Source of the DNA: Neglectibacter timonensis
GTDB taxonomy: Bacteria > Bacillota > Clostridia > Oscillospirales > Acutalibacteraceae
DNA length: 64,000 nucleotides
Direction: 5' to 3'
Assembly: GCF_900048895.1 (NCBI RefSeq)
Contig: NZ_LT160639.1
Location: 667,524-731,523, forward strand
How positions within the stretch are numbered: position 1 is the stretch's first letter; each line of letters opens with the position of its first letter. The translations under genes and the position numbers were made by a program. The notes beneath the pieces were generated by a model. It searched no databases. It saw only the letters and a program-made list of their open reading frames with translations, and had not been told where the DNA came from. Positions 12,499-46,487 of the stretch are shown one piece after another.

Positions 12499-14061
12499 TT
12501 AAGCCTCTTTGCGCCGCTCTGTCAGCTGACGGCGGTATTCGGCAAAAGACCGGCCTTCCTGCTTTCGGAACTGACGATAGAAATACTCCTCATTCCTGTA
12601 TCCCAGCGTTTCAATCAGCTCAGAGACTCTGCCGGTTCCGGCTGCAAGCTGCCGTTTGGCAGCAGTAATTCGCAGCCGGTTCAAATAATCACTGAAACTG
12701 CACCCGGTCTCCGCCTTGAACAATCGTCCAAGATAGGCTGGGTTCATGTAGAACCTCCTGGCGATGATCTGCAAATTCAAGGCGTGTGAGTAATTTTGCT
12801 CACAATACTGCTGAACCTGCAGCACCAGGTTGGAAGGACGGTGTACACTGGTCTCCCGAAAGAGCTGCAGCGCCTCCCTGCAAAGCGCAGAAAGGAAATC
12901 CTTCACCGTTTCCCTGTGCCGGAACAATCCCTCCTCCAGTACCCGGAGCTTCTCATCGTACCAGCGCAGCTCATAACCGATATTATATTTCTGGTAGAGG
13001 CCCATCAGCTCAAACAACACCCCGTACAACACGCCCCGCACCACTTTTTCCGGAATCTGCTTTTCCGCAATTTCCTGCAGCAACCGATCTGTCTCAGTCC
13101 AGACAGTCTCCTCTTCCAGAAACTGCAGGGCGTTGAGCAGACCCTCGGAACGCCAGCTCAGCCCGAAGGCCTCGCTGGGCCGTTCCTCCGGCTCCCTTGC
13201 CTGGGACAACAGGGCCTTCCCGCCGCAGTCCTCCAGCGCCGCCTCAAAGGAATTCCGCAGTTCCCCAAAGGATTCTGCCGGTCTTCCCATGCCTGCAGAA
13301 ACGCTCAGGTGAAGATAGGTCTCCACACAGGAAAGAAGCTCTGCCAGATAGGCGGGCGCCGCGCTTTCGAGCCTGCTACCCCCACAAAACAGCAGGCCGA
13401 TCCTGCGACCGTCATAATCAAAAGCGTAGCCCTCCAGATCATTGAGTTCCAGCAGTTCGCAGGCGATATTTTTGATACTGTAGCCCAGCAGGCCCGCATC
13501 CTTGTCCCCTCCGAAGTCCGGCTGCAGCACAGCCGTCAAAAACCGCCCGCCCTGCAGCTTCACTCCTTGGTCTGCCAGCCGCTTGCTGACTGCCTCCGGC
13601 GAAACGCCGGGAGAGAGCAGCTCCCGGAACAACTGGTTACGCACAATCCTGTCGTTTTCCAGGCTCCTGCGGTACTCCTCCAGCTCTCCGTCGAGTTCAC
13701 GTTTGATTTTTTTCACCGCGGCAAGCAGTTCCTCCCGGTCAATGGGTTTGAGCAGGAAAGCTTTTACCCCCATCTCAATGGCCTGCTTGGCATAGGCAAA
13801 ATCACTGTAGCCGCTGACGATGATGATCTTAATCCCGGGATCCTTCTCCTGAATTCGGCGGATCAGAGCCAGCCCGTCGATTCCAGGCATGCGGATATCT
13901 GTAAGGATGAGTTCGCACCGCTGCCAGGACAGCATATTCAGAGCCTCTTCTCCATTTGCCGCAAGCCCAATGATATGAAACCCCAGCTCCTGCCAATCCA
14001 GAAATTCTGCGATGCCCTCACAAATGTTTTTCTCGTCATCCGCAATCAGCACATTGTACAC
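12499..14061 (-). CDS. YesN-type response regulator (locus 1)
   Basis: A 520-residue response regulator. The receiver domain covers residues 1-120: the acidic pair is LIADDEK, the phosphoacceptor is D55 in ILTDIRMPGIDG, and the conserved Lys is in FLLKPIDREE. A long middle region (~140-410) carries a possible coiled stretch. The C-terminal ~100 residues form an AraC-type DNA-binding domain (LQIIARRFYMNPAYLGRLFK, then VSELIETLGYRNEEYFYRQFRK). The start is a GTG at 14061 with AAGGAGG nine bases upstream; the kinase stop ends one base earlier, so the pair is translationally coupled. It probably activates the importer and beta-helix genes of its own locus in response to an oligosaccharide (inference from YesMN families). 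Confidence 0.93.
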   Translation of the reverse strand: MYNVLIADDEKNICEGIAEFLDWQELGFHIIGLAANGEEALNMLSWQRCELILTDIRMPGIDGLALIRRIQEKDPGIKIIIVSGYSDFAYAKQAIEMGVKAFLLKPIDREELLAAVKKIKRELDGELEEYRRSLENDRIVRNQLFRELLSPGVSPEAVSKRLADQGVKLQGGRFLTAVLQPDFGGDKDAGLLGYSIKNIACELLELNDLEGYAFDYDGRRIGLLFCGGSRLESAAPAYLAELLSCVETYLHLSVSAGMGRPAESFGELRNSFEAALEDCGGKALLSQAREPEERPSEAFGLSWRSEGLLNALQFLEEETVWTETDRLLQEIAEKQIPEKVVRGVLYGVLFELMGLYQKYNIGYELRWYDEKLRVLEEGLFRHRETVKDFLSALCREALQLFRETSVHRPSNLVLQVQQYCEQNYSHALNLQIIARRFYMNPAYLGRLFKAETGCSFSDYLNRLRITAAKRQLAAGTGRVSELIETLGYRNEEYFYRQFRKQEGRSFAEYRRQLTERRKEA

Positions 14062-14062
14062 G

Positions 14063-15841
14063 TCAAATTTCCTCCTTTTCCCCCTCTTCAAACTGGCAGA
14101 GCGGCAGTCTGACTTCGGCTGTAGTTCCCTGCCCCGGCTCACTGCGGAAGTGCAGGCCATAGGGCTCTCCGAAGAGCAGCCGGATCCGCCGGTGTACATT
14201 TCTTATGCCGATATTTTCCTGCCTGGGAAGGGAATCCAGCTCTGCCTGCAGCTTTTGCAGCGTTTCCGCCTCCATTCCCACGCCGTTATCTTCCACAAAG
14301 ATGAAGAATTCCCCCGTGCCGATTTCGCTGGAAATCCTCAGTTTTCCATGCCCCTGCTTGGGCTCAAGCCCATGACGGATGGCGTTCTCCGCCAGAGGCT
14401 GGAGGCTGAACTTGGGAATTTTACAGCTTGAGAGTGCGGGATCCACCTGCAGCTCAAAGCAAATCCGGTCCGAAAAGCGGAACTGCTGAATCTGCAGATA
14501 TGCTTTGACCAGCTCCACCTCTTCCCGGAGGGTGACGGTATCCTTATCCCATTCCATGCTTCTGCGCATTAGGAGGGCAAATTTCTGAATGATCTCAGCC
14601 GTCTGAAAATCCCTGTTTTTCCAAAGGCGCATCCGCACAGATTCCATGGTGTTAAAAACAAAATGCGGATCAATCTGGGACTGCAGCGCCTTGATCTCCG
14701 CGTCCTTCTTTTCCAGCTCCAGGCGGTACACACCGTTGATCAGGCGGTTGATGGTATCCATCATCCGTCCCATGTCCTCATAGAGTTCCGTAATCTCATC
14801 ATGCCCGTCCAGCCTGATTTCCGGTTTAGCTTCGCCCCCGTGAAAATCGGTGGCATAGCGCACCAACAGCTTCAGCCGGTCCGTCAGCGTTTTGGAGAGC
14901 AGCAACAGGAAGCCTACAGCCCCCACAATGCTGAGCAGGCACAGCATGATACACAGCCATACTGATTCCGTCACTTTCTCCATCAGCGGCCGCCGTGACA
15001 TGATGGAAACCAACCTCCAGCTTACCCCAGGTTCTTCCTCCATGCTGCGGTAGAAAGAAACCGTGTCCGTTTCCCGCACGGGCTGATCCGGCATTCGCTC
15101 CAGTATCCGCTGCAGCGCAGGGAACTCTTCCGCATCCTTTCCAACTGCTTCCCTGACATTGGAGGAGAGCACCACCCCGCTGCTGCCCACCACATAGGTC
15201 TGCTGGTCCCCACGGCCCAGCAGGGAACAAAGCTCCGACTCGGGGGTACGAAGCAACAGGATATTTTGAATCCGTTCCTGCCCGTCGGATACGATCAGCT
15301 TTCCCACTGCAAGATATGCCTTTCCGTCCTCCAAAATGGGATCCAACAGCACATTGCTTCCGGCTGCCTTCATCACCCGTTCCCGGATTTCCTTCTTCAG
15401 GGGCGTCTGCTTCTGGGAGACCAAAAACACGTTGTCGGTAAGAATGGTAGGATTTGTCGTGTAGACGGAAAGCTTTGACAGGCTGCCTGAGGTGATGGGG
15501 AATTTCACCAGGCAGCTGTCATAGATGCGCCCGTAGTCCAGGTAGGGTTCGATCTCGTCCGGATGGAATTCATGGAGGGTATTGACATATTTCATTAATT
15601 CATAGGAAGAGGTTGCGCTGTCAGCTAACGCGAAATTAGCCCGCAGCATACTGTCTACATTTGCAGCGGTCTGATCGAAATAGACACGGTCCAGGTCTTC
15701 CGTATAGGACAGGGTGGAACTCACCATCCGCTGCAGGAAGAAACCGCAGACCACCAAAATGGGCAGCAGGACAAAACACCCGTATCCAAAGAGCAGCTTT
15801 TTTTGAATCCCCATCCGGTTGAGTTTTCCTGAAATTCCCAC
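14063..15841 (-). CDS. YesM-type sensor histidine kinase (locus 1)
   Basis: A 592-residue membrane kinase. A transmembrane segment lies at residues ~14-35 (LLFGYGCFVLLPILVVCGFF). A ~250-residue extracellular sensor region follows, then a second membrane segment near 290-320 (LCIMLCLLSIVGAVGFLLLL), a HAMP linker, and a His_kinase domain with LQSQIDPHFVFNTMESV (phosphoacceptor His near residue 391). The ATPase part has PLAENAIRHGLEP and EDNGVGM. The start is GTG, with AGGGAAGGGG just upstream. It sits 24 bases after the beta-helix gene and one base before the regulator. It likely senses an extracellular carbohydrate imported by the locus. Confidence 0.93.
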   Translation of the reverse strand: MGISGKLNRMGIQKKLLFGYGCFVLLPILVVCGFFLQRMVSSTLSYTEDLDRVYFDQTAANVDSMLRANFALADSATSSYELMKYVNTLHEFHPDEIEPYLDYGRIYDSCLVKFPITSGSLSKLSVYTTNPTILTDNVFLVSQKQTPLKKEIRERVMKAAGSNVLLDPILEDGKAYLAVGKLIVSDGQERIQNILLLRTPESELCSLLGRGDQQTYVVGSSGVVLSSNVREAVGKDAEEFPALQRILERMPDQPVRETDTVSFYRSMEEEPGVSWRLVSIMSRRPLMEKVTESVWLCIMLCLLSIVGAVGFLLLLSKTLTDRLKLLVRYATDFHGGEAKPEIRLDGHDEITELYEDMGRMMDTINRLINGVYRLELEKKDAEIKALQSQIDPHFVFNTMESVRMRLWKNRDFQTAEIIQKFALLMRRSMEWDKDTVTLREEVELVKAYLQIQQFRFSDRICFELQVDPALSSCKIPKFSLQPLAENAIRHGLEPKQGHGKLRISSEIGTGEFFIFVEDNGVGMEAETLQKLQAELDSLPRQENIGIRNVHRRIRLLFGEPYGLHFRSEPGQGTTAEVRLPLCQFEEGEKEEI

Positions 15842-15865
15842 AGCCCCTTCCCTCCCCGCCTTCTT

Positions 15866-18715
15866 TTACAGTCTCACCCTGTACAGCGCGGTACGCGCCG
15901 TGATCACCAGAGTGTTTTCCCCAACGGGGACCATACAGGCGGGCCGCTCCGGAAATTCCAAATACTCCGGCTCTCCGGCCTGCCGGTACACAAAGAGTCC
16001 TCCGTCCAGGATGCACACCGTGCCGGAGGGAAGCTCCAGAGAGCAGTATTCTCCCCGTTCCTCCAGCACCTGCGGCGAGAAGAGCTCGCAGGCGTCGTTT
16101 ACCTGCAGGCGCACCGTCCTTTTGTAAAATTCATCTGCGGAGAGAAAAGGCTTTCCGGGAACCGCTTTTTGCAGGCAGCAAGCACGCACCAAATCGTAGC
16201 AGCAGGCAATCACGGTTGCGCCGTCCGGCGCCTGCCAGCCTTTTTCCCAGCTGCGGCAGACGATGGAGAGGTGGTCGTTGTTGTCCCGCCAGCGGTTTCC
16301 GGGATAGACCACCGTCTTCACCCCTGTCAGCTCCGCCCTGTCCCTGCATTCCAAAACCGTCATGGTCCTGCCCGGGTCCTGCGGGTCCACTGCATATACT
16401 TTGATAGCAGACCCAGTGTTGTACCAAGCGCCGTAGGCTGTGCCTTCCGCATCCGCAGGCTTCGGATACCGTTCGCCGGAGCCCTTGGGCGGAAAGTATT
16501 CGCACACCGCCAGCAGCCGATCCTCCCCGTCGCAGATCAGGGAAAGGGGCCGGTAGGGCGTATCCCAAACAGGGCGGATCAGTCCGGTCTGACAATCGAG
16601 CTGGTAGATGTTTTTCTTCCGGGAATCGCAGAAATACACATTTCCGCGGCTGTCCGTGCAGATGGCGTCCACGTTGTCAAAGCCGTCCGCCAGCCTTTCC
16701 ACACGCCCGCCGGACTTAGGGGCGGGCCGTTCTGTGTTGAGGGTGAGCCGGGTCAGCTGCCAGGGCCGAACAGCTTTCCCGCCGTCGGCATCCCGCAGGG
16801 TGAAATCCATCGTATATTTCATCTGAGTGAAATTGTGCAGATTCCAGAATTCCGTGTTCCGGCAGTCCCGGGCCAAAACCGCCTGCGGGAAAGCGTTGTC
16901 CACCCAGATCACCCGGAACAGGTAGAGGTCCGCAAAGGTCAGGGAATCGCAGCCGGAAAGCTCTAGGGGCTGGCACCAACTGCTCTCCGCCACCTCTTCT
17001 TCGGTTTGCAGGGCATAGAAACTCCATCCGGAAACATTCTGCATCAATACCTCGCGGCGCACGTGGTGCTCCACCGAAACCGCATACATGGCTCCCGCCG
17101 CTGCGGTGTCGGAGAGGAAAAGGCCCGCGGCGGCATAGGGACTGGCGCTCCAGATATCTTTAAAGACTCCGCCTCCATTTTCCGTAATCCACAGGCTCCA
17201 GTACTGGGAGTCCCATTTCCGGGCAGGATCAGAATCTGCTGTGCGGCTCTCATTGTAGACAGGCACATTTTCTCCGCCGGGGTTCATAGAGCCGTGCCCT
17301 CCGTAAAACTTTACGTCGTTCATATAGGAGTCCGGACCCGCCGTCCACTTGCAGCCGCAGATCCGCGGATTTCTGGCAGCCGTATCAATGGCAATGCCGT
17401 TAATCAGATTTCCGCCGCCCTTTCCGCTTTCCAAAAGCGGCTTTGGCGTGCCAAACCCTCCGAAGACCGGCTCGTTATCCTTTACCATCAGTCTCGTGGA
17501 GATGGGGTTGAGACCGATCAACGCCGTATGCTCCCGCAGGCGCAGCGTGTCGCTCAGGCGGTAGAATCCCTGGGGGAAATAGAGCACGGCGTGGCTGTCC
17601 ACCGCCCGCTGCAGCACCGCAGTGTCATCCGTCTCACCATCGCCTGCGGCCCCCAGCTCCCTTACATTTACCCACTCGTCCTGGGGAGGCAGGTCCGGAA
17701 TGCGTTTGGGGAAGGAAAGAGGGAAGGAGGAAAGCGCCTCTGTCTCACAGACTGTTTGGAGTGACGCCTGCCCTGATACCCCTTTCATGACCAGGCCATG
17801 GGAAAACTCCCTGAGGAAAAACGTCTCCTGCTCCGGTTTGACATTCCTTCCGCTCTCTTCAAGTCTTGCAATAAAATTTACCCGCCGGCCGCAAAGGTTC
17901 CGGAGGCTGAGCTGGTTTGCCGCGCACCGGTCCAGAGGCGCTGTCACCAGGCAGTCTGAAATATTTTCAAAAACACCGTCCTCCAGATAAAGCTTTTCAC
18001 AAAAGCCGTCCTCGATCTCTATGGCCCGGGGACAGTCCCGAACCTCCAAATTCACAATGGTAAGCCCCGCTTCCCGCGTGTGGATGGCTGCCCGGCGCTG
18101 ACCGGAAAACCTGGCGTTCATCAGCAGGCAGGGCCAGCTGGGCGAGGTGCGGGTGGTATAGATGCCGTACTCTCCCCCTTCAAATGCCACATCCTCCAAT
18201 TCGTTTCCCACGTCGAACAGCCCGGCGCGCCCGCTCCCTGCACACACCCTGCAGTGCGAGATGAAGCTGTGCTGGGCAAAGTGGGTGCGCAGGGCCACAG
18301 CGCAGGGATTTCTCTCGCCGATTTCCAAATCAATATTGGACAAGGCGCTGTAGAAGGTGCCTGCGTTGGCGTCGGCAACCGCCTCCCCGGGATCGGGAAC
18401 CCGGTCGGTAAACCACAGCAGGTAGCGGGACTTTCCCTTATCCTCCGGCACGTCCTCCTGAAAGCCCGGCGAGCGCTCTTTCAGCACCAGCCTTGGCCGC
18501 GTTTTCCCCCAGCCGATCAGCCGGATGGCCCTGGGCACATAGATCGTGTCCGACAAAAGATAGACGCCCTCCTCCAGAAAGATAATACCATACCCTTTTT
18601 CCCGCTTCAGGCTGTTGATTGCCTCCTGAAGCGCCTGGGTGACATCACCCTCCCGATGACTGAACTGTACCGCCTCACCGTCGGCAAACGGTTTTTGATA
18701 GACAGATATTTCCAT
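15866..18715 (-). CDS. Large tandem beta-helix / propeller protein, GH55-like (locus 1)
   Basis: A 949-residue protein with no signal peptide or membrane segment. The first ~320 residues form one pectate-lyase-3-like right-handed beta-helix (GIIFLEEGVYLLSDTIYVPR). A second begins near residue 365 with the family opening NVRELGAAGDGETDDTAVLQ. Between them and the end lie WSLWITENGGGVFKDIW, EHHVRREVLMQN and QTEEEVAESSWCQP. From about residue 690 the sequence switches to NHL/gluconolactonase-like propeller repeats (DAICTDSRGNVYFCDSRKKN). Two tandem beta-helices and a QTE...QP stretch recall GH55 beta-1,3-glucanases; this is a resemblance recognised by eye, not a proven family assignment. The start follows GGGGAGG; nine extra upstream codons are unsupported. 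A paralogue of similar architecture sits at 36331-39261. It is likely an intracellular glycan-degrading enzyme fed by the importer. Confidence 0.82.
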   Translation of the reverse strand: MEISVYQKPFADGEAVQFSHREGDVTQALQEAINSLKREKGYGIIFLEEGVYLLSDTIYVPRAIRLIGWGKTRPRLVLKERSPGFQEDVPEDKGKSRYLLWFTDRVPDPGEAVADANAGTFYSALSNIDLEIGERNPCAVALRTHFAQHSFISHCRVCAGSGRAGLFDVGNELEDVAFEGGEYGIYTTRTSPSWPCLLMNARFSGQRRAAIHTREAGLTIVNLEVRDCPRAIEIEDGFCEKLYLEDGVFENISDCLVTAPLDRCAANQLSLRNLCGRRVNFIARLEESGRNVKPEQETFFLREFSHGLVMKGVSGQASLQTVCETEALSSFPLSFPKRIPDLPPQDEWVNVRELGAAGDGETDDTAVLQRAVDSHAVLYFPQGFYRLSDTLRLREHTALIGLNPISTRLMVKDNEPVFGGFGTPKPLLESGKGGGNLINGIAIDTAARNPRICGCKWTAGPDSYMNDVKFYGGHGSMNPGGENVPVYNESRTADSDPARKWDSQYWSLWITENGGGVFKDIWSASPYAAAGLFLSDTAAAGAMYAVSVEHHVRREVLMQNVSGWSFYALQTEEEVAESSWCQPLELSGCDSLTFADLYLFRVIWVDNAFPQAVLARDCRNTEFWNLHNFTQMKYTMDFTLRDADGGKAVRPWQLTRLTLNTERPAPKSGGRVERLADGFDNVDAICTDSRGNVYFCDSRKKNIYQLDCQTGLIRPVWDTPYRPLSLICDGEDRLLAVCEYFPPKGSGERYPKPADAEGTAYGAWYNTGSAIKVYAVDPQDPGRTMTVLECRDRAELTGVKTVVYPGNRWRDNNDHLSIVCRSWEKGWQAPDGATVIACCYDLVRACCLQKAVPGKPFLSADEFYKRTVRLQVNDACELFSPQVLEERGEYCSLELPSGTVCILDGGLFVYRQAGEPEYLEFPERPACMVPVGENTLVITARTALYRVRL

Positions 18716-18848
18716 TAAAATTCCTCCCCGTGTTTGCGTCAAACGCTGTTCTCCGTTTTTTCAGTGCCGATTCAAGGAAGACCGCCATGTGTTCCGCAGG
18801 AAAAGCAGATCTATCACAGGCTTCTTCCCCAAAACATAAAATCAGTTT

Positions 18849-19268
18849 TTATTCTCCCAATATCACGGCTGCCGAAACCGGCTGCGGCAGCTCCCAGTAC
18901 TCTGATTCCACCTCCAGGTTTTCAGTGATCTTAATGGAAGCTTTTCCCGCCGGAGTCAGCACCTGATGCCACACGCCCTTATTCAGGCACACAGGCTTAT
19001 CCAGCAGAAAGGCCTGGAATTCTTCGGGAGCCTCAGGCCGGGCAGTCAGCAGAATTCCTGTCCCCTGCACCGGCTCAAAGCTTTCCCGGGAAAAGGGGTG
19101 GCATTCCAGCCGGCGTGCCGGCCCCGCTCCAAATTCCAACAGGGCGATCCGCCATCCAGGGCTCTCTTCCCGCACGGCGATCTCCCAGCCCCGGGGGCCG
19201 CTGAATTCCAGCACTGTCCCATAGGCCGCAAAGCTTTCCCGGGTGATCTCGCAAATCTCTCTTCTCAT
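18849..19268 (-). CDS. Small cupin, ureidoglycolate-lyase-like (locus 1)
   Basis: A 139-residue protein with the beta-barrel pattern of the AllA/ureidoglycolate lyase group. Features are ITRESFAAYGTVLEFSG at the start, ECHPFSRESFEPVQGTGIL in the middle, and a WHQVLTPAGKA metal-or-substrate segment near the end. No purine catabolism genes are nearby, so the allantoin reaction is unlikely. A role in handling a sugar acid or lactone from the locus substrate is an inference. GAGAGGGG precedes the ATG. It sits between the terminator at 19381-19408 and the beta-helix gene (133-base gap). Locus 2 has no copy. Confidence 0.75.
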   Translation of the reverse strand: MRREICEITRESFAAYGTVLEFSGPRGWEIAVREESPGWRIALLEFGAGPARRLECHPFSRESFEPVQGTGILLTARPEAPEEFQAFLLDKPVCLNKGVWHQVLTPAGKASIKITENLEVESEYWELPQPVSAAVILGE

Positions 19269-19380
19269 AACAAATTCCCCTCTCTCCTGCTATTCCTCTT
19301 CTTCATCACAGCCCTCTCCTTCCAGATAAACCGTGCGGCGGGGCTCTCCGTTTTACAATGTTTAATCATAATATAATACT

Positions 19381-19408
19381 GAAAAGGGGGATTTGAAATC
19401 CCCCTTTT
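19381..19408 (-). terminator. Terminator/attenuator between solute-binding protein and cupin genes
   Basis: A 13-bp perfect inverted repeat (AAAAGGGGGATTT/AAATCCCCCTTTT) ends in T-runs on both strands. It follows the solute-binding protein gene by 56 bases. Within a same-strand cluster it probably lets importer mRNA exceed that of the downstream cupin, beta-helix and kinase genes. Confidence 0.8.
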
Positions 19409-19463
19409 CAGACGGCAGCTTCCGGGCCGGAGGAGCCGGACCGCGAAAGATGTCTCCTAAAAA

Positions 19464-20975
19464 TTATTCCTGGCCCTTTTTGAATTCGTCAAACTGCTTC
19501 TGCATCTCCGCCACAATAGTCTCGGATCCCGCCTCCCGCAGCTTATTGAGGAATTCCGGCAGAGTTTTCTCAGGATCTACAGCCCCCACCTTCAGAACGT
19601 TGTTGTACTCCTTTACAATGTTCAGGGTGGCGGCCACCTCGGTCTGCACCGGGGTCTCATCGAAGATAAAACCAAAATCCGGCAGCTGTTTTGCCTTGGC
19701 ATTGAACGCTTCAAACTGCTCCCATTTATCCGGCGCTTCTGTCTCATTGAGGAAGTTCAGGAACTGGTTGCCGTACATCCACTGCATGTTGGGGGCGTAG
19801 CCGCTGTCAGGGATCAATTTGATCACATTGTCGGATACCTTTTCATAATCCACACCTTCCACGCCGAAGTTGATCAGGTTATTGAGGTATTTATCCGTAT
19901 TTACCAGCTCCAGGAACATGGCCGCACGCTGAGGGTTCTTCGAGGTTCTGGAAATGGCCTGCATGGAACCCAGGGCATTGGTGAGATAGATGTCGGTAAC
20001 ATCCACCTGAGCCAGGGTGAAGCCTTTCCCCTGTGCCAGAATGTTCAGTTCATCCGCATAACAGGGCTTCAGGTTCACAGGGAAAGTGAAAAACTGACCG
20101 TTGGATTTCTGGGATTGGCCGTCCTTCATGGTGGCCACGTCCTTGCGCAGATAGCCTTTGTTGTAGAAGTCCCGCATCTGCTGATAGGCCGCCTTATACT
20201 CCTCCGATTCATACTGGTTGACCACCGTGCCGTCCGGCAGGATCATTCCTATCTTCTCCTGGGGGTTAGCACCCATTTCCATAATGGATACGAAGGGGAG
20301 ATTCTGGCTGTTGTCGTTAAACAGGGGAGTGAGTTCTTCATTGTGCTCCATAAACTGCTGCAGTTTGGGCTCGATATCACTATACGTTTTGATATCGCTC
20401 ATGTCAATCCCATATTCGTCTGCCAGGGTCTTGTTGTATACGAAGCCATAGCTGACAGCTTTTTCCTTGTTGCAGGGCAGTGCGTAGATATGTCCGTTTA
20501 CCCTCGCAGCATTGAGAAAGTCCTCTCCCACTGCTTCGGCAGCGCCCTTCATCTCGTTTTCCAAATAGCCGTCCATCTCCATAAAGGCGCCGTTTTTGGA
20601 ATTGAGCACATAGTCTACCATCCCCACGCCGGTAAAGCAGATATCAAAAGGTTCGCTGGCCGCGATAGCCGCCTTCAGCTTCTGGTCGTAGGAGGCCCAG
20701 TCCAGCATGTTCATCTTGACTGTGACATTGAGCTTGTCCTTTAGGTATTTGTTGATCTCCTGTTCGATGCGCTGGTTATCCCGCTGTTGGGCGGGCCCCA
20801 GTACATACCAGGTCAGATCGTAGGGTTCCAGTTCGCCGGAACCCGAAGTCTCCCCCGGTTCTGCGCCCTTGGATGCTCCACTGCTGCCCGAGGGCTGTCC
20901 GCAGCCTGCGGCCAGCAGGCACAGCGCCAGAATCAATGCCAGCAGTATCCGTCCTTTTGCCTTACTCTTTTTCAT
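19464..20975 (-). CDS. LipO-type extracellular solute-binding lipoprotein (locus 1)
   Basis: A 503-residue sugar-binding lipoprotein. A signal peptide (KGRILLALILALCLLAAGC) ends in the lipobox LAAGC, then a Ser/Gly-rich linker. The mature part has DLTWYVLGPAQQRDNQRIEQ and a DUF3502-like C-terminus (FGFIFDETPVQTEVAATLN), as in LipO proteins paired with LplB/LplC permeases. It captures an oligosaccharide outside the cell for the two permeases upstream. The start at 20975 follows GGGAGGAAG; eleven more upstream codons are open but unsupported. Confidence 0.93.
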   Translation of the reverse strand: MKKSKAKGRILLALILALCLLAAGCGQPSGSSGASKGAEPGETSGSGELEPYDLTWYVLGPAQQRDNQRIEQEINKYLKDKLNVTVKMNMLDWASYDQKLKAAIAASEPFDICFTGVGMVDYVLNSKNGAFMEMDGYLENEMKGAAEAVGEDFLNAARVNGHIYALPCNKEKAVSYGFVYNKTLADEYGIDMSDIKTYSDIEPKLQQFMEHNEELTPLFNDNSQNLPFVSIMEMGANPQEKIGMILPDGTVVNQYESEEYKAAYQQMRDFYNKGYLRKDVATMKDGQSQKSNGQFFTFPVNLKPCYADELNILAQGKGFTLAQVDVTDIYLTNALGSMQAISRTSKNPQRAAMFLELVNTDKYLNNLINFGVEGVDYEKVSDNVIKLIPDSGYAPNMQWMYGNQFLNFLNETEAPDKWEQFEAFNAKAKQLPDFGFIFDETPVQTEVAATLNIVKEYNNVLKVGAVDPEKTLPEFLNKLREAGSETIVAEMQKQFDEFKKGQE

Positions 20976-21036
20976 TTTTTCTTCCTCCCTTATTTCTCTG
21001 GGGCGCAAAGGCCCCTGCTTTCCATATGCCGCACCG

Positions 21037-21939: not shown

Positions 21940-21955
21940 GCTGATTCTACACCTC

Positions 21956-36249: not shown

Positions 36250-36330
36250 ACAGCGTTGGCTATCTTGGTACAAACGCCGCTCTCATGCAGAACGCGCTTC
36301 CTATTCCGTTTTTTTCCGCTGAAGGACCGC

Positions 36331-39261: not shown

Positions 39262-39304
39262 CAAAACAAACTCCTCTCAGCATATCCGGGCCATTCCCGG
39301 TTTC

Positions 39305-40195
39305 TCAGCCTTTCACTGCACCGATGATGATGCCCTTCACAAAATACTTTTGAAAGAAAGGATAGATCACCAGTACTGGCAGCGCGCCCATCACGGCCAC
39401 CGCCATCTTGATCCCGGTGGAAGGGAGGGTGAAATCCTGGCCCTGTAGGGACTGTGCCGCGCTGGTATTGCTCATCAAAAACTGAACATCCATCAGCATC
39501 TTGTTCAGCAGCACCTGAATGCTGTAAAGCCTGTCCTCATTGATATAGTAAAGGCCGTTGAGCCAATCGTTCCAGTATCCCAGTCCCACCAGCAGGGCAA
39601 GGGTGACGATGATGGGAACGGACATGGGCATCACAACCCGTAGAAGAATCCGCAGCTCACCTGCGCCGTCAATCCGGGCGGCTTCGATGACAGCATCCGG
39701 GATATTGGTGGTGAAATAGGTGCGCATCATAATCACATAGAAAGCGCCCATCATCAGGTTGGGGAACAAAAGCGCCGCAATGGTGTTTTTGATATGGAAC
39801 ATCTGGGTCCACATGATGTAACTCGGCACCAAGCCTCCGTTAAAGAGCATGGTGAAAAACAGAAAGAACGCCAGAACTCCCCGGCCTGGCAGATCCCTGC
39901 GGGAGAGCGGGTAGGCAAACAGGGTGGTGAGGGTCAGATTTAGTACAGTGCCCACCACAGTGACGATTGCCGACAGGATGTACCCACGCACAATACTGCC
40001 GGAATCCACCAATAGGTATTTATACGCAGAAAAATCAATTTTTTCCGGGATGAAGCTGTATCCGTTCCTCACCAGGCTGTTTTCCTGGGTGATGGAAGAA
40101 ACAATCAGAAGTACAAAGGGAACCAGGCAGAACAGCACCAGCAGAACCATGATGAGGTTGGCTACGACCTGGAAACTCTTTCCTCTATCTACCAT
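39305..40195 (-). CDS. LplC-type ABC sugar permease (locus 2)
   Basis: A 296-residue permease with six membrane segments. The EAA loop is IEAARIDGAGELRILLRVVM, and the C-terminus FFQKYFVKGIIIGAVKG is nearly that of the locus-1 LplC. TTAAAGGAGG precedes the ATG. It lies 15 bases after LplB and 43 before the beta-helix gene in one transcript. Confidence 0.93.
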   Translation of the reverse strand: MVDRGKSFQVVANLIMVLLVLFCLVPFVLLIVSSITQENSLVRNGYSFIPEKIDFSAYKYLLVDSGSIVRGYILSAIVTVVGTVLNLTLTTLFAYPLSRRDLPGRGVLAFFLFFTMLFNGGLVPSYIMWTQMFHIKNTIAALLFPNLMMGAFYVIMMRTYFTTNIPDAVIEAARIDGAGELRILLRVVMPMSVPIIVTLALLVGLGYWNDWLNGLYYINEDRLYSIQVLLNKMLMDVQFLMSNTSAAQSLQGQDFTLPSTGIKMAVAVMGALPVLVIYPFFQKYFVKGIIIGAVKG

Positions 40196-40209
40196 TTTTT
40201 GTGCCTCCT

Positions 40210-41139
40210 TTAAAACAGTGCATTTTCTGCGCTGAGCTTTTTGACCACGAAATTCGCCACCAGTACCAACAAGAATCCAATTAGCGACTGGTAAACGCCG
40301 GCAGCCGAAGCCATGCTGATATTGTTCAGAGACATGAGTCCGCGGTAAACATAGGTATCGATGGTGTTGGTTACATCCAACAGGGGGCCGGAATTCATAG
40401 GTACCTGATAAAACAGGCCGAAATCGGAATAAAAAATCTTTCCAATTGCCATCAGCGTCAGGGTGATGATGGTGGGCTTAAGCGCAGGAAGGGTGATGTG
40501 CAGAATTTGCTGCCACCGGTTCGCGCCGTCGATCACCGCCGCCTCATAATATCCCCTGTCAATTCCCACAAGGGTAGCATAATAGATGATACAGTTATAG
40601 CCCAATCCTTTCCAAATATTTACCAGGATCAGAATAAAGGGCCAATACTGGGCCGAAGTGTACCAGGAGATTGGCTCTTTTCCCAGCGCGGGCAGCAATG
40701 TTTTGTTAATGAAACCGGAGTCACTGCTGAGAAAGGCATACACCAGGTAACTGACCACCACGATAGAGATGAGGAAAGGTACCAGAATGGTGGTTTGATA
40801 CAGCTTTTTCGCCCTGCTGGAATGGATTTCGTTGAGCAGGACAGCCACAGCAATGGCGAACACCGTACCCAGTACAATAAACGCCACGTTGTAGAGAATG
40901 GTATTACGGGTGATAATCCATGCGTCTTTCGTCTTGAACAGAAATTCAAAGTTTTTCAACCCGATAAACGGACTGCCCCACATGCCCTTGGAATAGTTGA
41001 ACTGCTCAAAGGCAATGCTGATTCCGGCCATGGGGATATAGTTGTTGATGATGAGATAGACCGCTCCCGGCACCATCATCAGATAGAGGGGAAGATATGC
41101 CTTCAACTTTCTTCCCAAGCTCTTTTTCTGTTTGATCAT
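40210..41139 (-). CDS. LplB-type ABC sugar permease (locus 2)
   Basis: A 309-residue permease. It starts MIKQKKSLGRKLKAYLPLYL; six hydrophobic segments and the EAA loop YEAAVIDGANRWQQILHITL follow. The start at 41139 has ATGGAGGTG upstream; the frame is open to 41367 but that part is intergenic. It pairs with LplC. Confidence 0.93.
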   Translation of the reverse strand: MIKQKKSLGRKLKAYLPLYLMMVPGAVYLIINNYIPMAGISIAFEQFNYSKGMWGSPFIGLKNFEFLFKTKDAWIITRNTILYNVAFIVLGTVFAIAVAVLLNEIHSSRAKKLYQTTILVPFLISIVVVSYLVYAFLSSDSGFINKTLLPALGKEPISWYTSAQYWPFILILVNIWKGLGYNCIIYYATLVGIDRGYYEAAVIDGANRWQQILHITLPALKPTIITLTLMAIGKIFYSDFGLFYQVPMNSGPLLDVTNTIDTYVYRGLMSLNNISMASAAGVYQSLIGFLLVLVANFVVKKLSAENALF

Positions 41140-41173
41140 CAGGGCACCTCCATAAATTGATCCGTGACAAAAG

Positions 41174-41213
41174 AGAGGCGGAGCGGTCAGGGAGAATGAC
41201 CAGGCTCCGCTCA
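41174..41213 (-). terminator. Intercistronic hairpin after the locus 2 lipoprotein
   Basis: Arms GCGGAGC.(c)GTCA and TGACCgGCTCCGC fold around a seven-base loop; TCTTTTG follows on the minus strand. A weak terminator or mRNA-stabilising hairpin would raise lipoprotein expression over the permeases. Confidence 0.55.
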
Positions 41214-41251
41214 AACTACTGTTCTTCTGTTCCCGCCAGAACGGCGGCAGG

Positions 41252-42805
41252 TCAGGAATTGGATGCCAGCCAGGCGTCCAGCTGTTTCTGCTTTTCCTGA
41301 ATAATATCGTTGACGCCAGCATCCTCCAGTTCCTGTAGGAAAGCAGGCAGTGCGGTGGCAGGATCAATTGACCCAGTACCCAGGGCGTTCTCGTACTTGC
41401 TCTTCACATTTTTGCAGGCTGTCACTTGATTGAGCACACTGCTGTTATCCCAGCTGAAGCCCATGGCTGGAGAGATCACTGCAGAATCGTTCCAATCGGA
41501 GGTCTGCTGCCAGATATCCTCCGGATCGCCCTCCCAGGTATAGGAGATCATCTCGTTCGGCCAGGCCCAGGGATAGGAGGGATATCCGGTGTTGGTGCCG
41601 TCCACTCCCTCAGGGTAGCCAACAATACCCTTGGACTCATCCTTGATTTCAAAATGTTTTCCCTCAATGCCGTTGATACAGATATTTTCCAGCTCGGGGT
41701 TGGTATAAATTTCATTGAGCACCTGTACGGCGCGTTCCGGCTTTTCGCTATTGTGAGCAATGTACCACAGGATATCAAGACGTGTGGTTGAGGTATATAC
41801 AGGGGTAAGGGTGAATACCAGCATCTCTTTCGTGGTCTTTTTCTCCAGTTCGCCTTCGATGCCGGGCTTTGTATTGGTAAACATACCGAAGCCCTTGCCC
41901 GCTGCGATCTGTGCAGAGCTGTCCTCCGAAGTAGAGGAGGCATCGGGAATAATTAGTCCCTTCTGTGTCCAGGCATAACGGCGCTCCACAATATCTTTAT
42001 AGGTATCTGTAGCGAAGAAGTTCACCACAGTAGTATCGTCGGGATTTGTACAGTCTTCCAGGGAGCCGATGTCCGCGCCCAGATCATCCGCAGTGTTCAT
42101 AATGCTCATGCCACCGTAGCTGGCCACCACAGGCCATACATCGGGAAACTTTTCTTTCGCGGCCTCCAGAAGAGGAAGCAAGTCGTCCTCTGTCTTAATA
42201 TTGCTATAATCCACGCCCGTGGCGTCCGCCATTTCTTTTACGCAGGCAAATCCCCAGCTGACTGCAATTTCCTTGTTGGCAGGCACAGCGTATTTCTTGC
42301 CGTTGAGAGAGGTGCATGCCCAGCGCTCTTCAGGAATTTCAGTGAGCAGGTCGGGTCCATATTCGGACAGGTACTCCTCCATGGGGACAATCTGCCCGTT
42401 GTTGACTGCGGATACGAAAATATCGCGGTTGTTGTAGAGAACGTCCAGTTTTTCACCAGAGGAGAGCATCAGGTTCACCTGGTCCGGATAGCTTCCAAAG
42501 CCTACGCGGGTGATGTCCAGGGTAGTGTTGTATTTCTCCTGCAGAATTTTGCTGGCTGCTTCAGAAACCTCTTTACAATCCTCTGTTTTGGCATCGCCGG
42601 GAATCAGCAGCTTTACCGTGTAGGGATCCTGCGTGCTGAAATCCGTCTCCCCTGTTGCGGCAGACGCTGTGCTGGAAGTACTGACGGCCGAGCTTTCATT
42701 CTTCGAGGCCGATGCGGCTGAAGAACCATTGTTGTTGTTCCCGCAGCCTGCAAACGCCGTGACGCATATCGACGTAGCCAGGGCTGCTGCCAAGAATCTC
42801 TTCAT
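41252..42805 (-). CDS. LipO-type extracellular solute-binding lipoprotein (locus 2)
   Basis: A 517-residue sugar-binding lipoprotein. The signal peptide KRFLAAALATSICVTAFAGC ends in the lipobox FAGC, followed by a Ser/Ala-rich linker. The mature domain includes KLLIPGDAKTEDCKEVSEAA and a DUF3502-like C-terminus (GFSWDNSSVLNQVTACKNV). The start at 42805 follows AAGGAGG; 54 open codons upstream are leader sequence. It is the first gene downstream of the -10 at 43053-43058. Confidence 0.93.
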   Translation of the reverse strand: MKRFLAAALATSICVTAFAGCGNNNNGSSAASASKNESSAVSTSSTASAATGETDFSTQDPYTVKLLIPGDAKTEDCKEVSEAASKILQEKYNTTLDITRVGFGSYPDQVNLMLSSGEKLDVLYNNRDIFVSAVNNGQIVPMEEYLSEYGPDLLTEIPEERWACTSLNGKKYAVPANKEIAVSWGFACVKEMADATGVDYSNIKTEDDLLPLLEAAKEKFPDVWPVVASYGGMSIMNTADDLGADIGSLEDCTNPDDTTVVNFFATDTYKDIVERRYAWTQKGLIIPDASSTSEDSSAQIAAGKGFGMFTNTKPGIEGELEKKTTKEMLVFTLTPVYTSTTRLDILWYIAHNSEKPERAVQVLNEIYTNPELENICINGIEGKHFEIKDESKGIVGYPEGVDGTNTGYPSYPWAWPNEMISYTWEGDPEDIWQQTSDWNDSAVISPAMGFSWDNSSVLNQVTACKNVKSKYENALGTGSIDPATALPAFLQELEDAGVNDIIQEKQKQLDAWLASNS

Positions 42806-43052
42806 TTTTGTTTTCCTCCTTTTGTCTCCGCGGTTTGAGCTGGGAGTATCTTCCAGCCCAAATTTTACCCTTTCTGTAAGCATGAAAAAAACTGTGCCTG
42901 ATGACCCCGCCTGCAGATGGATTATGAACCTTTCCATGCCAAGAAACCTGGATATGTACTCTCCCATTCTTTTCCTGAAACTGCAACAAAATCCGCCTCG
43001 CGGGATGGACGCCGAATTGATTCACTGCTTACTTCAGCGGAGGATTAAGCCT

Positions 43053-43104
43053 ATTATAGCTAGGAAACCATACCATTTTCTGCCAACGGAATGACCTTCC
43101 GTTG
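43053..43104 (-). promoter_or_regulatory. Locus 2 importer promoter with candidate YesN site
   Basis: A perfect TATAAT (43058-43053) lies about 250 bases before the lipoprotein ATG and has no good -35. A perfect inverted repeat, CAACGGAA-TGACC-TTCCGTTG, at 43084-43104 would be centred near -48, a typical position for an activator. The 324-base gap 42806-43129 otherwise shows only the leader. The repeat could alternatively be a terminator of the regulator gene, but it has no T-run. Confidence 0.5.
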
Positions 43105-43129
43105 TTCTAAATATGACATTTTCCCAAAA

Positions 43130-44716
43130 CTATTTTTCAGGCTTGTCCCTTTCACACTCCTTCCTGTATTCCGTCGGTGAAACGCCGAATTCTTTTTTGA
43201 AAGCTCGGGCAAAATGGGAGAAATTTACATACCCCACCTTGGAAGCAATGATGCTGATAGAAAATGAGGTATTGCGCAGAAGGGACTCCGCTATTTTCAT
43301 ACGTTCCTGCACCAGGTATTCATTGAGACCAATCCCCATTTCCTTTTTAAAGAGCCGGGACAGGTATTCAGGATTGAGGTACACGGCTTTGGCAATCTCC
43401 TGCCTGCCAATATTTCTTGGAAGGTTTTCCCGGATGAAATCCAAAACTCGGTCGATTTGAGCCCTGTTTCCTTCAGCAGTATCCTGTTTTTCCTCCACGT
43501 ACCGGGTGGCGAAATCTACAAATTCCAGCAGCTGGGGCAGAGAGGTGCTGGCATGAAGCATGGCGTCGTAATCATAGGTCTCTGAAAAGATTTCATGAAC
43601 CCTCTCTTGATAACTCTGTATCACCCCAAAAAACAATTCCAGGAAATCCTCATGGAACCGGGCAAGCAGCTCCCGGTTGAGAGACCCCGCCTCAGCCAGG
43701 GTTTCAAAATACCTATGGATTTCCTCCCGTACCGCACCGCCGTAGCCTTGTCCCAGAAGGCTTTTCCACTTGGGAAAATCAGGAAAATAATCCGTTGGCA
43801 GCACCGTGCCCTCCAAGGGAAGAAAGCCCGTGCTCCTGGTCACATTGTTTCGGTCGACCTCCTGGAGACGCAGGTATTCCTCCGGCAGTTCGCGGAAGAG
43901 TACCGTCGAAGGTCCCGCATAACAGGATACCTCCATCCGGAACAAGCTCCTGCATGTCTCGCAGAATTGCGCCATAGCTTCTTCTTCCTTCCGGCGGTCC
44001 GAACCTTCCGCAATCATTACCACAGGATAGGCGTCCTTTCCCCCATGGAACAGTGTCACATGAGAAGAACATTCTTCCAGCAGCTCACTGAGGATATTCT
44101 GCATTCCGTAAATCAGCAGGCCGTATTCCCAGGGCTTCCCCTCCCACCGCTGAATCTGAAGCCAGAAACAACGGCACCGGGTATCGGGCGTACAGGGAAA
44201 GCCAAATACTCCGGCTTTTTCCGCCGCTTCCTGAGCGCTCATCTGTACTCCCTGCAAAAATTCACGCAGAATATTCCGACGAAACCCAATGGCCTCCCGC
44301 AGGGCATCCTTGCCTACAGAACTGTAAGAACGCACCAGCTGTTCCTCCCGGATTCGTTCGGAAACCCGCAGAATGGAGGATTCAACTCCCGCATAACTGG
44401 CAGGCTGCAGCAGGTAATCAGCCGCTTCCAGTTTCAGCGCTTTCTGTGCATAAGTAAAATCGGCATGAGCTGTCAGAAAGATGCACTTTACGTCCTGATA
44501 CCGCTCCCGTACCCATGAAAAAAATTCCAGACCGTTCTCTCCAGGCATCTCAATATCGCAGAGTAGTATATCGATATGTTCCTCCTGCAGAACCTGTTTT
44601 GCCTCCTCCCCACTGTGCGCTCCGAAGGCAGCGTCTACTCCCACTCTTTCCCAGTTCACACCGGAGAGTATTCCCTTCACCACATCCGGCTGATCGTCAA
44701 CAATTAATATTTTCAT
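43130..44716 (-). CDS. YesN-type response regulator (locus 2)
   Basis: A 528-residue regulator. The receiver domain has LIVDDQPD and D54 in LLCDIEMPGENG, with the Lys-region YLLQPASY (a Gln-Pro replaces the usual Lys-Pro). The C-terminal AraC-type domain has GRQEIAKAVYLNPEYLSRLF and SISIIASKVGYVNFSHFARAF. The start at 44716 follows AGAGGAGGAG and overlaps the kinase gene by 20 bases. It probably controls the importer promoter about 70 bases downstream of its own stop. The missing conserved Lys may affect phosphorylation-linked activation. Confidence 0.92.
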   Translation of the reverse strand: MKILIVDDQPDVVKGILSGVNWERVGVDAAFGAHSGEEAKQVLQEEHIDILLCDIEMPGENGLEFFSWVRERYQDVKCIFLTAHADFTYAQKALKLEAADYLLQPASYAGVESSILRVSERIREEQLVRSYSSVGKDALREAIGFRRNILREFLQGVQMSAQEAAEKAGVFGFPCTPDTRCRCFWLQIQRWEGKPWEYGLLIYGMQNILSELLEECSSHVTLFHGGKDAYPVVMIAEGSDRRKEEEAMAQFCETCRSLFRMEVSCYAGPSTVLFRELPEEYLRLQEVDRNNVTRSTGFLPLEGTVLPTDYFPDFPKWKSLLGQGYGGAVREEIHRYFETLAEAGSLNRELLARFHEDFLELFFGVIQSYQERVHEIFSETYDYDAMLHASTSLPQLLEFVDFATRYVEEKQDTAEGNRAQIDRVLDFIRENLPRNIGRQEIAKAVYLNPEYLSRLFKKEMGIGLNEYLVQERMKIAESLLRNTSFSISIIASKVGYVNFSHFARAFKKEFGVSPTEYRKECERDKPEK

Positions 44717-46487
44717 CGCATATTCTCCTCCTCTGGACGCAATTCTCAGCTGGAGCATTCCCGTCTCCGTGTATCTTATCCAAGGGAAAAACCATTTCGA
44801 AAATCGTTCCGGGATTCCCCTCCATACAGGCAAATTCAAACTGTCCCCCATACAAAAGGTAGAGTCTCTGGCGCACGTTCAGAATGCCGATATGTTCCTC
44901 CCTGTGTTCAAAAGTTACCCGGCCATTGTATTCCTTCAGCAGTTCCGGTGGTATCCCGGGGCCGTTATCCGAAACGGAGATATCCAAAAGCCTCCCCCTC
45001 TCAGAGTCAAGCGGTTGTACGTCCAAGGAGATCACAAGTTCCTTGCCGGGAACCAATGCGTGCTTGCAGCTGTTCTCCACAAAGGTCTGGATGCTGAGTG
45101 CCGGAATCATCGCTTCCCGCACTTCTTCCCCGGCTCGTATATTCAGCCGTATAGGATGGGAGGTAATATACTGTTGCATCCGGATATAGTTTTCTGCATG
45201 CTTCAGCTCCGTATCCAGCAACACCCGATCCTTGTTGTCATGAAAAATATACCGGACGTGATCAGAAATCATCAATATAGCATTTTGGATTTTGTCATAT
45301 TTTTTTCCTTCCGCCATTCCGTACAGGGTTTTCAGAATATTCAGGAAAAAATGGGGGCTGATTTGCAGCTGAAGGTACTGCAGCTCCGCGTATTGTACCT
45401 GAATCTCCTTTTCATATGTTTCGATTTTAAGATTCTTCACTTCATCCATCATCTCGTTGAAGGAGGTGCTCAGCTGCTGGAGTTCCTCCACCTTCTGTTC
45501 CTCCCTAAAACGGGCGTCCAGCTTTCCGGAACGGATTTTTTTTAACGTTTCCGTCATATGCTCCATAGGCTTCAGATACCAGCGCTTCAGCGCCAGAAAC
45601 AACATGGGGACCAGAGCCAGAATAAAAGCCGACAGAAACAGGATCAGAATAAGAATCTGGTTCATCTTATGAAGCCCTCCCGGATAGGCTTCCAGAAAAA
45701 CTATATACATGCCGGTGACTGCTGAATAATTCTGCACGATGAAATGCCTGCCGGAAAAGTAGGAGCTTCGAGCCTCTGTTTTCAGAAATATTCCGTGATC
45801 TGCGAGAAGGGCCTGGGATGTGAGTGGGTTCCCTTCCTGATCGGCATACAGCATCAGGGAGTCTTCCGGAAAATGGGGCGCATCCTGTGGCTTTACCGTC
45901 TGATCCAGGTCGATGAAGCAGAGTGTACGGGCGCTTCGGTTTCCGAAAAAACGTACCAAAAAGCAACGGCCTCCCATACTGAGAGGAAACCAGCTTTTTG
46001 GAAAGTCCTCCTCCCATTGTTTCAGCAGTCCTGCGCCATACTCCCACATGGCCGTCCGTTCCTCATAAGTTGTGGTGGCCTCGGCAAACGTTCCCTTTAA
46101 AATCCGGTTCTCGTTGGAGAGGATCAGCATGGCAGCAATGGTCGGCTCGCTGCTCATCAGGGCCTTATATTCTGTAATCACATCATAGGAATACCTGTAG
46201 GCATTGAGCTCGCTTTGACGGTATAACAGCCTCCCATGGCTGTAATCTTGCGCCCAATAGCCAGAAATAGAGGTTTCAATTCTGCCGATGTCGCTTTCCA
46301 GCTGCCGTTGATAGAGGTAGATAGTCCCCTCGCCGTTTTGTTCCATTTCAGAGTGGAATTCCTGCAGTGAATAGGCATTTTGAACCAGCTGCAATGTAAG
46401 TATCGGCACAATAAACAAGAAGATCATCGCCAGTTGCAGTTTTTTAATGGAATAGAGCCGCTTCCTGTTCCGCTTTTTCTCTCCCAT
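44697..46487 (-). CDS. YesM-type sensor histidine kinase (locus 2)
   Basis: A 596-residue membrane kinase. Membrane segment 1 is LAMIFLFIVPILTLQLVQN, then ~240 extracellular residues, segment 2 near 280-305 (ILILILFLSAFILALVPML), a HAMP linker, and the kinase domain with LQLQISPHFFLNILKTL (His near 379). The ATPase region has FVENSCKHALVP and SDNGPGI. AGAAAGGAAC precedes the ATG. It is first in the pair and overlaps the regulator. The C-terminal ~25 residues after FPLDKI are an unusual charged tail created by the overlap. Confidence 0.93.
   Translation of the reverse strand: MGEKKRNRKRLYSIKKLQLAMIFLFIVPILTLQLVQNAYSLQEFHSEMEQNGEGTIYLYQRQLESDIGRIETSISGYWAQDYSHGRLLYRQSELNAYRYSYDVITEYKALMSSEPTIAAMLILSNENRILKGTFAEATTTYEERTAMWEYGAGLLKQWEEDFPKSWFPLSMGGRCFLVRFFGNRSARTLCFIDLDQTVKPQDAPHFPEDSLMLYADQEGNPLTSQALLADHGIFLKTEARSSYFSGRHFIVQNYSAVTGMYIVFLEAYPGGLHKMNQILILILFLSAFILALVPMLFLALKRWYLKPMEHMTETLKKIRSGKLDARFREEQKVEELQQLSTSFNEMMDEVKNLKIETYEKEIQVQYAELQYLQLQISPHFFLNILKTLYGMAEGKKYDKIQNAILMISDHVRYIFHDNKDRVLLDTELKHAENYIRMQQYITSHPIRLNIRAGEEVREAMIPALSIQTFVENSCKHALVPGKELVISLDVQPLDSERGRLLDISVSDNGPGIPPELLKEYNGRVTFEHREEHIGILNVRQRLYLLYGGQFEFACMEGNPGTIFEMVFPLDKIHGDGNAPAENCVQRRRICDENINC

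Follow-up and report, generated by a model that had tools for sequence, protein, structure and literature searches.

Gram-positive polysaccharide utilization loci (gpPULs) of Roseburia and Eubacterium rectale each combine a degrading enzyme, an ATP-binding cassette (ABC) importer and a regulator, and histidine kinases and AraC-type response regulators, the kinds described below, are among the regulators listed for them (PMC5320581). Here we describe two loci of this type, only 13.4 kb apart, in a 64,000-nucleotide stretch of the 3.67-Mb Neglectibacter timonensis genome (GCF_900048895.1, contig NZ_LT160639.1, positions 667,524 to 731,523; C13:667524-731523 in our numbering), referred to throughout as the window. 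Both encode a transport system and a transcriptional regulator, as the gpPUL definition has it, and both encode, as putative degrading enzyme, a ~960-amino acid (aa) double beta-helix/propeller protein that is GH55-like by sequence and that we call HEL as a working name. Overall, we consider it somewhat probable that these are two separately acquired gpPULs that import beta-1,3-linked gluco-oligosaccharides, which HEL would hydrolyze in the cytoplasm.

The type of locus is already known; the HEL enzyme, and the swapping of the cassettes around it, are the part worth following. The mixed-linkage beta-glucan gpPUL of Blautia producta resembles the window loci in that beta-gluco-oligosaccharides are imported by a substrate-binding protein (SBP) and ABC system and then broken down in the cytoplasm, but its enzymes are of families GH16, GH94 and GH3, and no GH55-like enzyme is seen in the passages of that account consulted (PMC10318527). 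The described gpPULs differ from the window loci more generally, in that the window enzyme is predicted to be cytoplasmic and GH55-like, and is common to loci with importers and sensors from lineages that are not sisters.

YesM/YesN and LplA/LplB/LplC of Bacillus subtilis have the same domain make-up as the window kinase, regulator, SBP and permeases, and we use these names for resemblance, not orthology. By their Pfam matches, each locus has genes for LplB- and LplC-type permeases, a DUF3502 lipoprotein, HEL, a YesM-like histidine kinase (HK) and a YesN-like response regulator (RR), all on the minus strand. Locus 1 (12499-22939) reads LplB-LplC-SBP-cupin-HEL1-HK-RR and locus 2 (36331-46487) reads HK-RR-SBP-LplB-LplC-HEL2. 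A previous reading of the window from its sequence only had proposed the same module kinds, their differing order and the lack of an ATPase gene in either locus; every module lies where it was placed, and Pfam scans confirm all three points.

In locus 1, the LplB- and LplC-type permeases (21956-22939 and 21037-22026; BPD_transp_1) are followed by the SBP (19464-21008; SBP_bac_1 and DUF3502; PDB relative 5mlt, E 1.5e-52), the kinase (14063-15841; His_kinase and HATPase_c) and the regulator (12499-14199; receiver and AraC helix-turn-helix [HTH], Response_reg 2e-29 and HTH_18 1.4e-19). In locus 2, the kinase (44697-46487; HAMP, His_kinase and HATPase_c) is followed by the regulator (43130-44851; Pfam), the SBP (41252-42967; DUF3502, PF12010), and the LplB- and LplC-type permeases (40210-41367 and 39305-40195; BPD_transp_1). 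Several of these open reading frame (ORF) starts are overlong, as judged from the sequences themselves and from tblastn comparison to orthologues. The true starts are probably a GTG near 14061 for the locus 1 regulator and an ATG near 21939 for its LplC; in locus 2, starts near 41142 for LplB and at 42805 for the SBP (both from tblastn with orthologues) and at 44716 for the regulator are likely.

Probable separate histories of the two loci

Comparison of the module pairs, a check proposed in the sequence-only reading, gave identities between the loci of 50.5% for LplB (over 297 positions), 46% for HEL (966 aligned positions), 41.5% for LplC (294), 29% for HK (over 244 positions only), 28% for SBP (532) and 24% for RR (545). 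The likeness of the HEL proteins is clearly beyond chance, and of the components of the two loci, HEL alone is both rare and strongly shared. Three full-length copies are present in the genome, and HEL occurs in 8 of 198 genomes in a sample of relatives (E <= 1e-50), 7 of 394 of the order and 4 of 391 of the class (both at E <= 1e-100), counts from overlapping samples that each include N. timonensis itself. The other module kinds are common and not special, with 22 matches to DUF3502 in the genome, 43 to LplB (34 at E <= 1e-19, the weakest including LplC genes) and 53 to the AraC-type HTH. Chromosomal closeness is likewise weak evidence, because DUF3502 genes tend to cluster in any case (10 pairs lie within 21.8 kb vs 2.85 expected) and because at least one pair as close as the two SBP genes, which lie 21.8 kb apart, appeared in 95.5% of 5000 simulations placing 22 genes uniformly on 8 contigs (3.43 of 3.67 Mb). 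As close SBP pairs are expected, duplication is not needed to account for the proximity. The spacing of the three HEL genes had a p value of 0.034 in the same simulation.

Phylogenies of the five non-enzyme modules separate the two loci. The trees comprised 15 loci of the same genome (long stretches), 13 short stretches at further LplB matches, the window and 8 foreign loci (L089, L090, L091, L097, L098, L100, L150 and L162), with LplB and LplC rows chosen by score and RR and HK rows by length; some of these trees and of the HEL trees carried tool warnings for long branches and uneven composition. In approximately unbiased (AU) tests, a clade joining locus 1 to the locus-2 lineage (the window, L089, L090, L091 and L150, plus L162 for HK) was rejected for LplB (p 7e-4), LplC (2e-8), SBP (5e-5), HK (1.5e-4) and RR (1.4e-4), and other loci of the same genome fall between the two. 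Locus 2 modules are closer to those of L077, a locus on C14 at ~1.40 Mb that carries a GH39 gene (LplB 73%, LplC 74%, SBP 44%, RR 35% and HK 33% identity to locus 2), than to those of locus 1; next nearest for most modules is L075, which carries GH43 and a GH35/DUF5597-type gene. The modules of loci 1 and 2 are thus not all each other's nearest kin, as those of a duplicate pair should be, and the five trees do not support modular reshuffling after a duplication, one of two origins raised in the sequence-only reading. Statements about the nearest kin of HK1 and RR1 are tentative because the genome's other kinases and regulators lie outside the tree sample. A common origin of locus 1 with the similar arrangement of L100 (LplB-LplC-SBP-LacI-one gene-HEL) was also rejected, for LplB (1e-113), LplC (0.0019) and SBP (7e-7).

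For HEL the outcome is different. HEL1 and HEL2 alone as a clade are rejected (p 1e-64), necessarily so because HEL2 has orthologues, but the AU test does not reject HEL1 as sister of the whole HEL2 lineage (p 0.0535). Given this and the five-module rejections, the HEL enzymes may descend from one older gene, the remaining modules being without that shared history. To the question of whether all modules diverged together, the answer is therefore no for LplB, LplC, SBP, HK and RR and a possible yes for HEL only.

Uninterrupted versions of both sites are present in congeners. Locus 1 occupies approximately 12336-23226, between typA/bipA (10385-12283) and a MATE gene (23195-24589, plus strand); in two congeners (G007, L191; G019, L193), bipA is followed directly by the MATE gene, with homology to the window ending at ~12335 and restarting at 23227. 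Matches to bipA were found in 27 other congeners, and 8 neighborhoods were compared: the direct junction is present in 2, the MATE gene is not beside bipA in the other 6, and locus 1 genes were found in none. Locus 2 occupies approximately 36163-46647, between an S9 peptidase gene (34178-36175, plus strand) and a spoIIID ORF (46687-46962, plus strand; TIGR02844, 1.7e-31). In G019, G012 and G021 (L199, L200 and L201), the peptidase gene leads directly into the spoIIID sequence, M23 and lexA block, with homology ending at 36162 and restarting at ~46648. These are 3 of 3 neighborhoods compared, taken from 8 other congeners with an S9 match. In G012 (L200:303-3777), an SBP/LplB/LplC set 39/65/62% identical to that of locus 2 lies ~5 kb to the left of the S9 gene, with no HEL in the stretch.

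Locus 2 also exists as a unit elsewhere. Its six-gene order is identical in L089 (G028), L090 (G007) and L091 (G105), with respective identities of 59/59/51% for HK, 60/62/47% for RR, 72/72/78% for SBP, 87/87/85% for LplB, 81/82/86% for LplC and 74/72/62% for HEL, and it is rotated in Anaerocolumna sp. MB42-C2 (L150), where HEL comes first and the remaining five genes keep the locus-2 order. The genes to the right of the operon in G007 match the window at 61.5-63.9 kb, so the operon stands at another place there; the genes flanking L089 and L091 match neither the window, each other, L090 nor any of the five congener stretches compared. The window SBP and LplC are closest to those of L091, from another genus (78% and 86%), and HEL, HK and RR to those of congeners; recombination inside the operon is possible.

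Together, the AU rejections for five modules, the uninterrupted sites and the conservation of the locus-2 operon elsewhere support two separate acquisitions, not duplication and reshuffling, and so favor the second origin that had been raised, two independent acquisitions. Some observations sit less easily with this conclusion. HEL1 and HEL3 (the third copy, described below) fall with the HEL2 lineage in a group of 8 supported at 97/98; the window contains no tRNA; repeats at the borders come to one shared 10-mer at locus 1 and none at locus 2; and that the sites record gain and not loss is something we infer. With no tRNA and minimal border repeats, a mobile-element signature at the borders was discarded. 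G+C content does not set locus 1 (54.9%) apart from its flanks (53.5-56.0%) and is slightly low in locus 2 (51.2%).

The HEL group would be expected had an ancient duplication of the whole locus been followed by replacement of importer and regulator genes one at a time, and such a history would explain why all the loci have the same module kinds. We consider it improbable, since all five non-enzyme modules reject the sister relation, both sites exist in uninterrupted form, the locus-2 operon lies elsewhere in G007, and five in-place replacements are less simple than separate assembly. It is likewise improbable that the loci have long been present in the genus and that other species lost them cleanly, making the uninterrupted sites deletions: presence and absence alone, together with the want of notable border repeats, are compatible with losses, but HEL was found in only three genomes of the genus (G000, which is N. 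timonensis itself, G007 and G028), no HEL1 relative exceeds ~52% identity among the matches listed, and the locus-2 operon is in another place in G007. Gain is the simpler reading of the uninterrupted sites, and we continue with separate acquisition.

HEL as a GH55-like enzyme

HEL1 (15866-18742, minus strand) and HEL2 (36331-39264, minus strand) each contain two PF12708 stretches and a C-terminal NHL/SMP-30-like propeller region, the latter recognized by profile matches to Drp35 and to designed propellers of the NHL type. The profile, built from 53 HEL sequences, matches the GH55 glucanases 5m5z (1e-27) and 3eqn (2.5e-25), with matches extending into both halves of these proteins. HEL residues were counted, and the HEL tree built, from 85 sequences, each taken to at most 1020 residues; HEL loci numbered 79, from the best 80 of 129 matches. 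L141 was excluded because no one frame is open throughout. Four loci contributed their open pieces, L106 and L162 because stop codons interrupt the match and L161 and L165 because the match is short.

The general-acid Glu of GH55 lies in a QxE motif, 22-23 residues after a Glu-His pair in the numbering of SacteLam55A and MnLam55A; in MnLam55A the pair is Glu591/His592 and the acid Glu614, 23 apart (PMC10637969). In HEL, SVEHH...QTEE aligns with SEHS...QTET of 5m5z and SEHH...QTET of 3eqn, the last stretch of 3eqn being weak when taken alone. E558 and H559 are present in 85/85 sequences and E581 in 84/84 readable ones, and the spacing is 23 in all 84, equal to that in MnLam55A. Q157, aligned with AQ of 5m5z, is also present in 85/85, so that HEL has a predicted acid Glu in a QxE motif and a candidate proton-relay Gln, equivalent by alignment.

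HEL thus resembles the GH55 beta-1,3-glucanases PcLam55A (3eqn), CtLam55 (5m5z) and MnLam55A (8jhh) in its two predicted beta-helical domains and in the spacing of 23 from Glu-His to acid Glu. It differs from them in its remote sequence, its additional propeller region, the near-universal absence of the helper Tyr and, in Bacillota, the lack of a signal peptide. We describe HEL as GH55-like and do not assign it as a member of GH55.

A crude hydrophobicity test found a signal-like N-terminus in none of the 3 copies in this genome, none of 19 other Bacillota proteins and none of 4 relatives from the same order or family (0/26 Bacillota-type rows in all). The same test was positive for 39/42 sequences from Bacteroidota, 3/3 from Verrucomicrobiota, 8/10 from Pseudomonadota, 0/1 from Fidelibacterota and 3/3 others. 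A literature search, made largely without subscription journals, found no recognized description of the HEL family or of such cassette swapping.

The family also includes variants. Three relatives of 674-710 aa (L094, L095 and L096) are without the C-terminal propeller region and keep the EHH and QTEE motifs; HEL-type genes occur in pairs, adjacent or with one gene between, in L125, L127, L133, L135, L167 and L171, from several Gram-negative genomes; and the matches at L162:4966-7900 and L141:423-3355 are broken by in-frame stop codons. Elsewhere in N. timonensis, two short matches to the PF12708 region (G000:C13:840758-842169; L012 and L013), each in a frame of its own (340 and 386 aa), adjoin another LplB-type gene (842578) and are possibly a further beta-helix protein pair.

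Neighborhoods, substrate and regulation

HEL3 (C13:191635-194421), outside the window, marks a third HEL locus (L088, C13:183000-202999; HEL at L088:8633-11524). Directly upstream lies the only GH16 gene of the genome, whose nearest PDB entry is laminarinase 3iln (E 3.7e-70), and the locus has a divergently placed importer of another subfamily. It further encodes a kinase and a regulator of its own, which, like its SBP, resemble their counterparts in a Paraliobacillus HEL locus (L098; SBP 50%).

Across 77 loci, the window included, neighbors of HEL comprised GH16 in 2 (L088 and L113), GH30 in 4 (L107, L113, L119 and L120), GH9 in 11, GH18 in 9 (in one case inside the long HEL ORF of L153) and GH5-like proteins in 4, of which one matches a GH9 protein weakly. 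These counts are of phmmer relatives of six query proteins and may therefore miss other family members; L113, for example, also has GH9 by Pfam. Clustering of the neighbors excluded L105, L123, L141 and L154 of the 79 loci. The nearest structure to the GH30 of L119 is 5ngk, the endo-1,6-beta-glucanase BT3312 (PMC5481569), and L185 has a GH5 nearest to the exo-beta-1,3-glucanase 6zb9 (8e-88), a second GH5 and a GH18. Inspection by eye placed HEL of the Eubacterium-type loci L136, L138 and L152 among genes looking like housekeeping genes or reductases; L184 and L186, viewed by eye without a Pfam run, showed no recognized glycosidase beside HEL. In L102-L104, L108, L110-L112, L115-L117 and L124 (Mucilaginibacter and Puia), HEL lies near a phosphotransferase system (PTS), an isomerase-type gene, GH9 and partly GH18, hinting at use of fungal or chitinous walls.

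Several of these findings count against a beta-1,3-glucan substrate for the window loci. Neither locus has a GH16 or GH30 gene, so that the beta-glucan context derives from HEL3 and from other species, and even there from 2/77 and 4/77 loci; L131 has GH2 beside HEL; and the Mucilaginibacter loci lie near a mannose-family PTS, a glucosamine-6-phosphate isomerase-type gene, GH9 and GH18. Within the protein, the position of the GH55 helper Tyr (MnLam55A Tyr617), three residues past the acid, is Tyr in only 2/84 HEL sequences and Val in all three copies of this genome, and the alignment is heavily gapped around the subsite -1 Trp/Asp and aromatic block. HEL could accordingly be a GH55-fold enzyme for another substrate, such as a glycan of amino sugars from the walls of fungi or arthropods, in loci that import pieces other than beta-1,3-glucan. 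The Mucilaginibacter and Puia neighborhoods, the missing Tyr (82/84) and the distance of HEL from the characterized GH55 enzymes in the PDB all fit this proposal, yet we think it unlikely: the catalytic Glu/His positions match GH55, neighbors of GH16, GH30 and GH5 exo-beta-1,3-glucanase type recur in several unrelated genomes, and chitinase and glucanase neighbors fit a fungal-wall glucan too.

If beta-1,3-linked gluco-oligosaccharides are indeed the substrate, the local kinase/regulator pair would sense them outside the cell and turn on the operon, the DUF3502 lipoprotein would capture them and LplB/LplC would bring them in. Cytoplasmic HEL, acting as an exo-enzyme, would then take glucose off the beta-1,3-linked, possibly 1,6-branched, chain. 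No second glycosidase is encoded in either locus, and extracellular cleavage of the polysaccharide would have to fall to other enzymes or to other microbes.

The energy for import would come from an MsmX-like ATPase that is encoded outside the loci and shared. In Bacillus subtilis, MsmX is a multitask ATPase serving many sugar importers (PMC7658222), and one ATPase able to serve many importers would explain loci that have no ATPase gene. The genome has one match to the OB_MalK Pfam family, at C14:806462, in a search confined to that family and thus to ATPases with that domain. The importers without an ATPase of their own and this lone match fit the MsmX pattern, and it may energize both importers; unlike for MsmX, sharing is here inferred from the single genome match.

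A candidate regulator site precedes the SBP gene of locus 2 (43080-43117, minus strand): a 22-bp direct repeat, GTCA-N6-GAA-N9-GTCA, followed by a TATAAT-like box. AraC proteins usually use direct-repeat sites, and from this and its position the site may be bound by RR2. Like the window, L089, L090 and L091 have the site before the SBP; L090 carries a second copy of the pattern ahead of its kinase gene, and L150 has a looser form. Its sole perfect match in the window is 43092-43117, and an extended pattern has one match in the genome and 0 in the control. Perfect matches occur in 9/201 loci: L089, L090 and L091, their duplicates L164, L122 and L129, and L069, L092 and L131, which represent one unrelated stretch of G134. 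A role as operator is made less secure by the derivation of the pattern from an alignment that includes the window itself, and by the lack of enrichment in the window at 2 mismatches (5 found vs 13.3 expected). The pattern has no perfect match at locus 1, and a common operator for both loci was rejected. Ahead of locus 1, CCAGACAC occurs twice (22976-22983 and 23027-23034), 51 bp apart; as a repeat signal it was dropped as within chance (2 in the window vs 1.38 expected).

The enzyme is the constant part of these systems, to which importers and sensors seem to have been attached several times. HEL appears to have come together with importers on four or more occasions in the sampled Bacillota, because its DUF3502-type importers (locus 1, the locus-2 lineage and L100) do not form one clade (rejected for LplB at 1e-57, LplC at 2e-51 and SBP at 2.5e-38) and the HEL3 locus has another importer type; this count takes tree positions as separate joinings, not repeated importer replacement. 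Different triggers for the two window loci are plausible, since their regulators and SBPs are divergent enough. More broadly, we put forward with equal measures of confidence and doubt that HEL represents a widespread, seemingly unnamed GH55-like and propeller family of Bacillota, Bacteroidota, Verrucomicrobiota and Alphaproteobacteria, exported in most Gram-negatives and cytoplasmic in Bacillota, which joined unrelated importer/sensor cassettes at least four times, and that its three portable operons here place one digestive step under three triggers.

Other genes of the window complete the picture. Between the SBP and HEL1, locus 1 encodes a small cupin-type protein of the ureidoglycolate-lyase family (18849-19268, minus strand; PF04115 Ureidogly_lyase, E 7e-8). 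The 13.4 kb separating the loci hold two MATE genes, BlaI/BlaR1-like genes, two proteins without Pfam matches, an ABC exporter-type pair with GntR, a TetR gene and the S9 peptidase gene, with no evident tie to either locus. Within this segment, at 24719-28822, the BlaI/BlaR1-like pair is followed by the two proteins, of 297 and 316 aa, which have neither a Pfam nor an NCBIfam match.

The genome has dozens of look-alike sugar loci, and similarity of permeases and SBPs is then unreliable for predicting substrates. As the enzyme and not the importer is constant, substrate assignment becomes testable by following the enzyme across cassettes, and N. timonensis offers a natural experiment in which, within a single cell, one enzyme type is paired with three different sensor and importer sets. 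Should HEL turn out to be a beta-glucanase, it would add a cytoplasmic GH55-like route for fungal or algal beta-glucan pieces in this group.

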